From Ignisphaera sp. (GTDB lineage: Archaea > Thermoproteota > Thermoprotei_A > Sulfolobales > Ignisphaeraceae), in assembly GCA_038831005.1 (NCBI GenBank), contig JAWBKZ010000003.1:1-64000 (forward strand): a DNA stretch of 64,000 nucleotides. Direction: 5' to 3'. This document shows, in pieces, positions 22,283-56,404 of this stretch (its first letter is position 1; every line of letters begins with the position of its first letter). A program made the position numbers and the translations under genes. The notes beneath the pieces were generated by a model that ran no database searches, was not told the origin of the DNA, and saw only the letters and a program-made list of their open reading frames with translations.

Positions 22283-22341
22283 TTCATCAGAAACACAAGC
22301 CTTCATCATTAGGTCAGTTACAGCCGTGATCATCATTCTTC
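22283..22341 (-). ncRNA. C/D box guide RNA, canonical boxes
   Basis: Read on the minus strand: C ATGATGA (22336-22330), 12-nt guide tcacggctgtaa, D' CTGA (22317-22314), 4-nt spacer, C' ATGATGA (22309-22303), 12-nt guide aggcttgtgttt, D CTGA (22290-22287). All four boxes match consensus and both guides have the canonical length. It would direct 2'-O-methylation at the target base paired to the fifth guide base before each D box; targets were not identified. It lies in the 300-bp gap between DUF1152 and the winged-helix gene, which contains nothing else recognised. Confidence 0.94.
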
Positions 22342-53657: not shown

Positions 53658-55316
53658 ATGAGAAGCAATGTTGTAAAGAAAGGTATTGAGAGAGCTCCTC
53701 ACAGATCTCTATTCAAAGCCTTAGGTTTAACTGACGAAGAGATAGAGAAGCCCTTGATAGGTATAGCGAACTCGTGGAATGAAGTTATACCTGGACACAA
53801 GCACCTTAACCAGATCGCTGAAGCCGTGAAAATCGGTGTAAGACTTGCTGGTGGAACACCCCTAGAGTTCAACACTATAGGTATATGTGATGGTATAGCT
53901 ATGGGTCACGAAGGGATGAAGTATTCTTTACCATCGAGAGAGCTTATAGCTGATAGCATAGAGGTTATGGCTAAAGCCTATCAATTCGATGGTTTAGTCC
54001 TTATAGCATCATGCGATAAAATCATACCAGGTATGCTCATGGCTATAGCTAGACTAAATATACCATCAATATTCATATCAGGTGGACCTATGCTTGCCGG
54101 AAGATATAGAGGTAAAGATATTGATCTACACGATGTCTTCGAAGCTGTTGGAGCAGTAAAGATAGGCAAAATTTCTTTAGATGAGCTGAAGCATATAGAA
54201 GAAGCTGCATGTCCTGGTGTAGGATCATGTGCAGGAATGTTCACAGCCAACACACTAAATATACTGACTGAAGCTTTAGGTATATCTCTACCTGGTAATG
54301 GAACGATACCTGCTGTAGATGCTGCTAGAATAAGGCTTGCCAAGATTACTGGTATGAATATCGTGAAACTTGTTGAGAAAAACATAAAGCCTAGAGATAT
54401 ATTGACCAGAGAGGCTTTTCTAGATGCTATAGCTGTCGATATGGCTCTAGGTGGATCAACAAACACCGTTCTACATCTAATGGCTATAGCTAAAGAATGT
54501 GAGATTGATTTAAGTCTAGATGATTTCGATAGAATTAGCGAGGCCACGCCTACATTAGCTAGGCTTAGTCCTGCTGGACCTCACCATATACAAGATCTCC
54601 ATGAAGCTGGAGGTGTAGCTGCAGTTATGAAGGAACTCGATAAGAAAGGACTCATACATAGAGATCGTTTAACTGTAGCTCTAAAAACCGTTGGGGAGAT
54701 AATAGATGGTTCACAAGTTATGCGCAGAGATGTAATTAGACCTATAGAGAATCCCATGCTACCGAGAGGAGGCATAATGATTCTAAAAGGTTCTTTAGCA
54801 CCTCTTGGTGCTGTTATAAAAGTTTCAGCTCTACCGGAGAACCTCTACTTCTTCGATGGTGTAGCAAATGTCTATAATTCAGAAGAAGAGGCAGTAGCAG
54901 ATATTCTTAATGGAAGAGTTGAGAAAGGTGATGTAGTTGTGATAAGATATGAAGGACCTAAAGGAGGGCCAGGGATGAGAGAAATGCTGACTGCCACATC
55001 TGTTCTCGTTGGCATGAATCTCGATAGAGATGTAGCTCTTATAACAGATGGAAGATTCTCTGGAGCTACTAGAGGTATCTCCATAGGTCATGTATCACCT
55101 GAAGCAGCTGAAGGAGGTCCTATAGCTGTTGTCGAGAATGGTGATAGGATAAGAATAGATTTGAAGATGAAGAAAGTCGATTTATTAGTAGATGAAGATG
55201 AATTGAATGAAAGATTCAAGAAATGGAAACCTGCTAAAATAAGGTTTAAGGGCTATCTAAAAAGATACTCAGAACTCGTTACCTCATCATGTACAGGTGC
55301 TGTATTTAAGGAATAG
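53658..55316 (+). CDS. ilvD: Dihydroxyacid dehydratase
   Basis: 552 residues, Fe-S dehydratase. [23 protein letters not shown] and [13 protein letters not shown] supply the cluster and Mg ligands; [25 protein letters not shown] is the C-terminal active-site loop. ATG 53658 has GGTGT 6 nt upstream, better than TTG 53652. Last of the ilv plus-strand genes; it follows cimA by 30 bp. Confidence 0.95.
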
Positions 55317-55410
55317 AGCTTTCTAGAGAGTAATAATGTTCAAATCCTTCATAAGTTTCAAAATGTTTTCAGTTAAAGATATACCTATATTTCATTAAAT
55401 TATGTTTAGT

Positions 55411-55464
55411 AGATGATGTTTTGAACCTGGGTCTGAAAAATGATGAACGGTGCAAACGCTGAAG
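55411..55464 (+). ncRNA. C/D box guide RNA, possible tRNA target
   Basis: C ATGATGT (55413-55419), 13-nt guide, D' CTGA (55433-55436), 3-nt spacer, C' ATGATGA (55440-55446), 12-nt guide acggtgcaaacg, D CTGA (55459-55462). The first guide is the complement of a T-arm sequence (CCAGG TTCAAA), suggesting a tRNA target near position 51 by the fifth-base rule (inferred). It lies in the 200-bp gap after ilvD, with a TATA-like tract about 25 bp upstream. Confidence 0.92.
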
Positions 55465-55516: not shown

Positions 55517-56404
55517 ATGGATGTGTGTGTTATTGGTTTAGGTTTGATGGGTTCTGCTCTCGCTAAAAGGCTTAGGAATAGTGGATACAATGTTATACTA
55601 TACAATAGAACTATTGATAAAGCGTATAGACTTGCAGATGAGATAAATGCAAAAGTTGCTGAAAGCCCTAGAGAATGCTGTAACTCGTCAGATATTACTG
55701 CTATATTTGTTGCAGATGATAATGCGTTAATAGATGTAGTGTTTCCACCAAATGGTTTTGCTGATTCAAGTAGAGACAAGGATATAGTTAATATGTCGAC
55801 AGTATCAACAGCAGTATCAGAAAGAATACATAGATTTATTGAGGCTAGTGGAGGAAACTATGTAGAGAGCCCTGTGTATGGAAGTGTATCAGAAGTTCTA
55901 GAAGGAAGACTAGTGGCTATAGTTGCAAGCAATAAGAATATTAATGAAAATGTTAAACAGTTCTTATCATCTATATCCAAAAAAATCATGTATGTAGGAA
56001 ACATACCTAGAGCAATGGCACTTAAACTAGCTCTAAACCAGCTAAATATGGTTATAGTGGCTACGCTAGCAGAAACTCTCTCGTTTTTGAAGATCAATGA
56101 AATAGACTACTCGCTACTTGAAGAACTTGTTAGAGGAACATGGATGGAACCTATACTAGATAGATTCATGAAAAGAGCTCTAGAAGAACATCCACCAAGA
56201 TTCAGAATAGAATTAGCGGCAAAAGATCTACAAAGCTTTATAGAATCTGCAAGAATAAAGAAACTGAATACCCCAATAACAGCAGCCGCAATGCATAGAT
56301 ATCTAGAAGCAACACTACACAACTATGGAGATAAAGACTATCCAAACATAACAAAATACATAATAGATACTATACACAAACAGAACACTAAAACCAAACA
56401 ATGA
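55517..56404 (+). CDS. 3-hydroxyisobutyrate dehydrogenase-family reductase
   Basis: Beta-hydroxyacid dehydrogenase of 295 residues. VIGLGLMGSALAKRL is the NAD(P) loop, SPVYGSVSEVLEGRL the substrate region (usually DAPVSGG), and ALKLALNQL has the catalytic Lys. The substrate-binding Ser-Gly-Gly is changed to Tyr-Gly-Ser, so the hydroxyacid may differ from hydroxyisobutyrate. Tail rich in Lys/Thr. Confidence 0.85.
   Translation: MDVCVIGLGLMGSALAKRLRNSGYNVILYNRTIDKAYRLADEINAKVAESPRECCNSSDITAIFVADDNALIDVVFPPNGFADSSRDKDIVNMSTVSTAVSERIHRFIEASGGNYVESPVYGSVSEVLEGRLVAIVASNKNINENVKQFLSSISKKIMYVGNIPRAMALKLALNQLNMVIVATLAETLSFLKINEIDYSLLEELVRGTWMEPILDRFMKRALEEHPPRFRIELAAKDLQSFIESARIKKLNTPITAAAMHRYLEATLHNYGDKDYPNITKYIIDTIHKQNTKTKQ

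Follow-up and report, generated by a model that had tools for sequence, protein, structure and literature searches.

A C/D box guide RNA of Ignisphaera with a predicted target at wobble U34 of tRNA-Ala(UGC)

Introduction

Most archaeal C/D box guide RNAs target rRNA. Others are already known in archaea to address tRNA, at nt 34 or in the T-arm (PMC7994747, PMC7912444, PMC7668247). In Pyrococcus, nt 34 is addressed in tRNA-Leu(CAA), Leu(UAA), Met and Trp (reviewed in PMC7994747). For S. acidocaldarius, PMC7668247 gives predicted guides for U34 and G18 of tRNA-Gln(UUG) and for C50 of tRNA-Gly(CCC), and it reports that Um34 was observed in tRNA-Gln. A Pyrobaculum C/D guide directs formation of Cm56 in the T-arm (Renalier 2005, as cited in PMC7912444), and Pyrobaculum also has families of tRNA-targeting C/D RNAs whose partner guides are reported to have no target (Lui 2018, as summarized in PMC7994747). 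A large RNA-seq survey noted tRNA targets of archaeal C/D RNAs but did not compile them (PMC4644070). As to tRNA-Ala(UGC) itself, U34 is reported to be unmodified in Haloferax (PMC2584109), and a methylated G22 is mentioned in PMC7668247 as an unexpected finding in Methanococcus maripaludis.

Here we analyse a C/D box sRNA gene in 64,000 nt of Ignisphaera DNA (the whole stretch, referred to as ‘the window’). Like the wobble guides of Pyrococcus, the sRNA has the C/D architecture, follows the +5 rule, by which the fifth guide base from the box marks the methylated nucleotide, and would address nt 34 of one tRNA; unlike them, its predicted target is U34 of tRNA-Ala(UGC), which is not among the Pyrococcus targets (PMC7994747). 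S. acidocaldarius belongs to the same order, and Um34 together with T-arm ribose methylation by fibrillarin RNPs is a common theme, only predicted in our case; compared with PMC7668247, the tRNA is a different one and the T-arm nucleotide is 51 instead of 50. What the locus shares with the Pyrobaculum families, as they are summarized in PMC7994747, is that a guide addresses either nt 34 of one particular tRNA or a sequence common to many tRNAs. It differs from that summary in that the partner guide matches a tRNA, both here and in another family of the class (f4), where the match is to nt 22 in the D-arm of tRNA-Ala. In the literature covered, with Lui 2018 as summarized in PMC7994747, we found no description of the U34 target in tRNA-Ala(UGC), of its breadth or of the tRNA-directed partners; an earlier description is possible.

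Results and discussion

The sRNA gene lies on the plus strand at 55411-55464 (ends approximate), between an IlvD-like gene that ends at 55316 and a dehydrogenase-like gene that starts at 55517, both named by eye. It was examined by its box pattern, by comparison with Rfam profiles and by a surrogate test. From 55413 to 55462 the sequence reads ATGATGT-TTTGAACCTGGGT-CTGA-AAA-ATGATGA-ACGGTGCAAACG-CTGA, that is, a C box (55413-55419), a D' guide (55420-55432), a D' box (55433-55436), a C' box (55440-55446), a D guide (55447-55458) and a D box (55459-55462), all on the plus strand. With 13 nt, 3 nt and 12 nt between successive boxes, this is the arrangement of an archaeal C/D RNA, which has four boxes and guides of about 12 nt. 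The C box is likewise ATGATGT or GTGATGT in the congeners G001, G007 and G008. The same architecture was absent from all of 20 surrogate sequences generated from the whole window with a first-order Markov model. A possible BRE/TATA element, AAAGATATA, was read by eye at 55375-55383 on the plus strand, some 26 nt before the point where the RNA probably starts, and the genome carries a fibrillarin gene (C6:21894-22565, PF01269, E 3e-103). Judged by its sequence, then, the locus is a genuine, standard archaeal C/D guide RNA, in agreement with the original prediction.

The sRNA shares box signatures and spacing with Rfam sR28, sR3, sR18 and snoPyro_CD, while its guides differ from theirs. E-values against Rfam C/D families ranged from 8e-5 (sR28) to 4e-3, with snoPyro_CD at 8e-4; all scores were below the gathering score, so the sRNA is taken in by no Rfam 15 family. 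Sixteen homologous loci compared with Rfam at a looser threshold gave no score above gathering either. When species genomes were scanned for exact copies of the D' guide and its boxes, a single Ignisphaera locus came up, together with two matches in bacteria that we judged to be due to chance. The matching sRNA in the public record, from an uncultured Ignisphaera, is identical in sequence to that of congener G008. In a near relative (L108) the locus has no ilvD neighbour, so the genomic place of the gene is not conserved.

Targets were sought among the 44 tRNAs of the genome, which is 99.5% complete, and in its rRNA. The D guide, ACGGTGCAAACG, which the original prediction had missed, has the better supported target. 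Nucleotides 55449-55457 pair with nt 31-39 of tRNA-Ala(UGC) in an unbroken run of nine Watson-Crick pairs, and the +5 base, A55454, stands opposite U34. This is a four-codon-box tRNA, and the genes for it that we read are intronless. The pairing has the length used as a criterion in PMC4644070, at least nine consecutive pairs spanning +5, here with +5 on nt 34; of 1000 shuffled D guides, 22 matched some tRNA equally well. These data point to U34 of tRNA-Ala(UGC), through the D guide, as the better supported target of the sRNA, with Um34 as the predicted product.

It is quite improbable that both guides act on rRNA and that their tRNA matches are coincidental. Such an assignment would suit the usual targets of archaeal C/D guides, and the D guide does have a seven-pair site in 23S rRNA (local nt 2259). 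However, seven is its best run in rRNA and is at chance level, since about half of shuffled guides equalled the best rRNA runs of both guides; the site of the D guide in tRNA-Ala is longer, and its sequence is conserved across the class. We therefore rejected rRNA targets for either guide of this sRNA.

The D' guide, TTTGAACCTGGGT, matches nt 47-59 of tRNA T-arms through 12 Watson-Crick pairs and one G-U pair. With G-U pairs allowed, none of 1000 shuffled guides equalled its score against the 44 tRNAs, so the relation between guide and T-arm is real. The full 13-nt match, ACCCGGGTTCAAA, is found in tRNA-Glu(UUC), Glu(CUC), Arg(CCG) and a fourth tRNA, probably Asp, and about ten further tRNAs, Ala(UGC) being one, have a 12-nt match, TCCCGGGTTCAAA. 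That the first guide is antisense to T-arms and that its +5 base stands opposite nt 51 had both been proposed from the window, and both hold; the base in question is T55428. The Cm56 guide of Pyrobaculum is also antisense to the T-arm, but its offset falls on C56 (Renalier 2005, as cited in PMC7912444), whereas +5 falls on nt 51 here; we rejected a guide of that type for this reason.

The identity of nt 51 is another matter. The original prediction had correctly read the 13-nt guide as the complement of ACCCAGGTTCAAA and named A51 as the methylated nucleotide, yet nt 51 is G in 42 of the 44 tRNAs, and every tRNA that carries ACCCGGGTTCAAA or TCCCGGGTTCAAA has G there, never A. The D' methylation site is thus a U-G pair, and A51 is not the target. 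A search of the genome's tRNAs for CCAGGTTCAAA, which had been set in advance as the refuting test, found it in 0 of 44. The guide is indeed the exact complement of CCAGGTTCAAA, but this sequence occurs only three times in the genome, once as the other strand of the guide itself and twice outside tRNAs. A51 is present in one tRNA only, Asn, whose stem is different and whose pairing with the D' guide is poor. The proposal of a tRNA with such a T-arm, methylated at A51 through the D' guide, is contradicted by a genome of this completeness and can practically be dismissed.

Whether the contact with G51 is productive turns on the fifth base. With strict Watson-Crick pairing across the methylation site, the best run of the D' guide against tRNAs is 7, which is not significant, and the U-G pair at +5 leaves this genome without nine consecutive pairs spanning that position. 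The congeners G001, G007 and G008 do have them: their D' guides form 11-13 consecutive Watson-Crick pairs with the T-arm of their own tRNA-Ala. Eight further sRNAs of the genus could be read, and in each the +5 base is C, which gives a proper pair with G51 and makes the window copy the exception. Complementarity to the T-arm is weak in G003, G004, G005 and G010, and at chance level in G003, G005 and G010.

Even with the U-G pair, the D' guide might have full activity and methylate G51 in this genome too, on the roughly 14 tRNAs whose T-stem is CCGGG. Its remaining 12 pairs are perfect, its score stands above those of all the shuffled guides, and the proper pair with G51 is kept in congeners. 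We nonetheless regard full activity as unlikely, since Dennis and colleagues consider a Watson-Crick pair at +5 to be critical and class double guides without one as binding but not methylating (PMC4644070, which counts mismatches at +5 and gives G-U no separate treatment). The opposite view also seems doubtful to us, namely that the D' guide, as an orphan or relic, resembles an antisense T-arm by accident and has no function here, so that only the D guide matters. D' guides are highly variable in the genus, some of them at chance level against tRNA, and orphan guides are common (PMC7994747), but a 13-nt contact with 12 Watson-Crick pairs is not expected by chance, and the contact is common to three congeners. 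We suggest that the function of the D' guide in the genus would be Gm51, now or formerly, and that the contact here is probably non-productive or weak.

Taking both guides together, we consider it likely that the locus encodes a C/D guide RNA devoted to tRNA, whose D guide would direct Um34 of tRNA-Ala(UGC) and whose T-arm contact is probably unproductive in this genome. The sRNA, if expressed, would assemble with L7Ae, Nop5 and fibrillarin, and the D guide would pair with nt 31-39 of tRNA-Ala(UGC), leading to 2'-O-methylation of the wobble uridine. The D' guide would pair with nt 47-59 in the T-arm of tRNA-Ala and of further tRNAs whose T-stem reads CCGGG, a pairing that would direct Gm51 in related species. 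In this genome, because the fifth base is U and faces G at the methylation site, the contact probably serves to dock the tRNA or to chaperone it, and G51 would be methylated weakly or not at all.

The D guide is not confined to Ignisphaera. We surveyed 229 genomes of the class, from 87 genera, with the pattern TGATGA-N-GGGTGCAARC-N-CTGA (C' box, guide and D box), allowing at most two mismatches. The Ala-U34 guide with its boxes was present in 79 genomes and 40 genera, as against 1 of 229 genomes for the reversed pattern. Since the pattern was built on the guide, its matches must resemble the guide, and the count is evidence only relative to this control; the checks on seeding bias consist of the reversed pattern and the trend at nt 32 described below. 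In most families the guide is GGGTGCAARC and its pairing reaches nt 40, while in the genus Ignisphaera it mostly stops one pair earlier, where a guide C stands opposite C40. The guide base opposite nt 32 tends to follow the tRNA base, with G opposite C32 in 14 genomes, G opposite U32 in 4, A opposite U32 in 18 and A opposite C32 in 9. This trend is moderate (Fisher p 0.006, uncorrected for relatedness), its significance being overstated because related genomes are not independent. The nine genomes with the A-C mismatch, eight from family f7 plus G016, show that there is no strict need for the pair at nt 32, which is the third counted from the box. The guide is thus conserved in 40 of 87 genera and tends to change together with its target tRNA, with these nine exceptions, and the predicted Ala-U34 guide is a widespread family with no Rfam match above threshold.

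The same pattern found the element in none of about 40 genomes of family f9 and in few of family f11, which we take to be Sulfolobaceae and most of whose genomes had no match. Um34 on tRNA-Ala(UGC), if formed as predicted, is therefore not universal in the order. These absences may reflect lineage-specific loss, or divergence past the reach of the pattern. A conserved guide for wobble U34 of tRNA-Ala(UGC) amounts to a specific prediction, for which the lineages without the guide are natural controls.

The partner guide, by contrast with the constant Ala-U34 guide, differs from family to family. In the search for its targets, the window's genome supplied the rRNA and all tRNAs other than tRNA-Ala as stand-ins. 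The f4 partner, CGCGCTCTTCG (for example in L110, L113 and L114), forms nine pairs with the D-arm of tRNA-Ala, with +5 on G22. Taken singly this match is within chance (115 of 1000 shuffles were as good); it recurs in all three f4 genera that have a survey match. The partner guide makes a weak T-arm contact in f7 and has a strong T-arm match in G170. In G131 (L149) the partner, GCGGGGAAAA, pairs perfectly with 10 nt of 16S rRNA (local nt 425-434), so that the tRNA-Ala guide is joined there with an rRNA guide, and several other partner guides had no evident target among the stand-in tRNA and rRNA. This comparison of sequences suggests that the Ala-U34 guide is the constant part of the RNA and that its partner has been replaced over time, leaning to tRNA. 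We put forward only tentatively, as somewhat short of an even chance, that this is an old class-wide family with a fixed Um34 guide, whose second guide has repeatedly turned to tRNA and often to the same tRNA-Ala (nt 22 in f4, nt 51 in Ignisphaera). If true, such a double-guide RNP would act on two sites of a single tRNA, in contrast to the one-guide RNAs for tRNA described in Pyrobaculum.

Some other C/D guides came to light alongside these. The D' guide of L117 (G191), GTACCTCGCATCT, matches 13 nt, including two G-U pairs, of the stretch before the intron in tRNA L075 of the window's genome, perhaps Trp. L096 and L097 (G121 and G087) appear to be another C/D sRNA, with TTTGAAACCGGGT as first guide and a distinct second guide ending in GGTCGGTTTA. 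The window itself contains a second C/D sRNA on the minus strand at 22287-22336, which matches Rfam sR5 (41.1 bits); its guides are TCACGGCTGTAA and AGGCTTGTGTTT, and their best candidate targets are in 23S rRNA.
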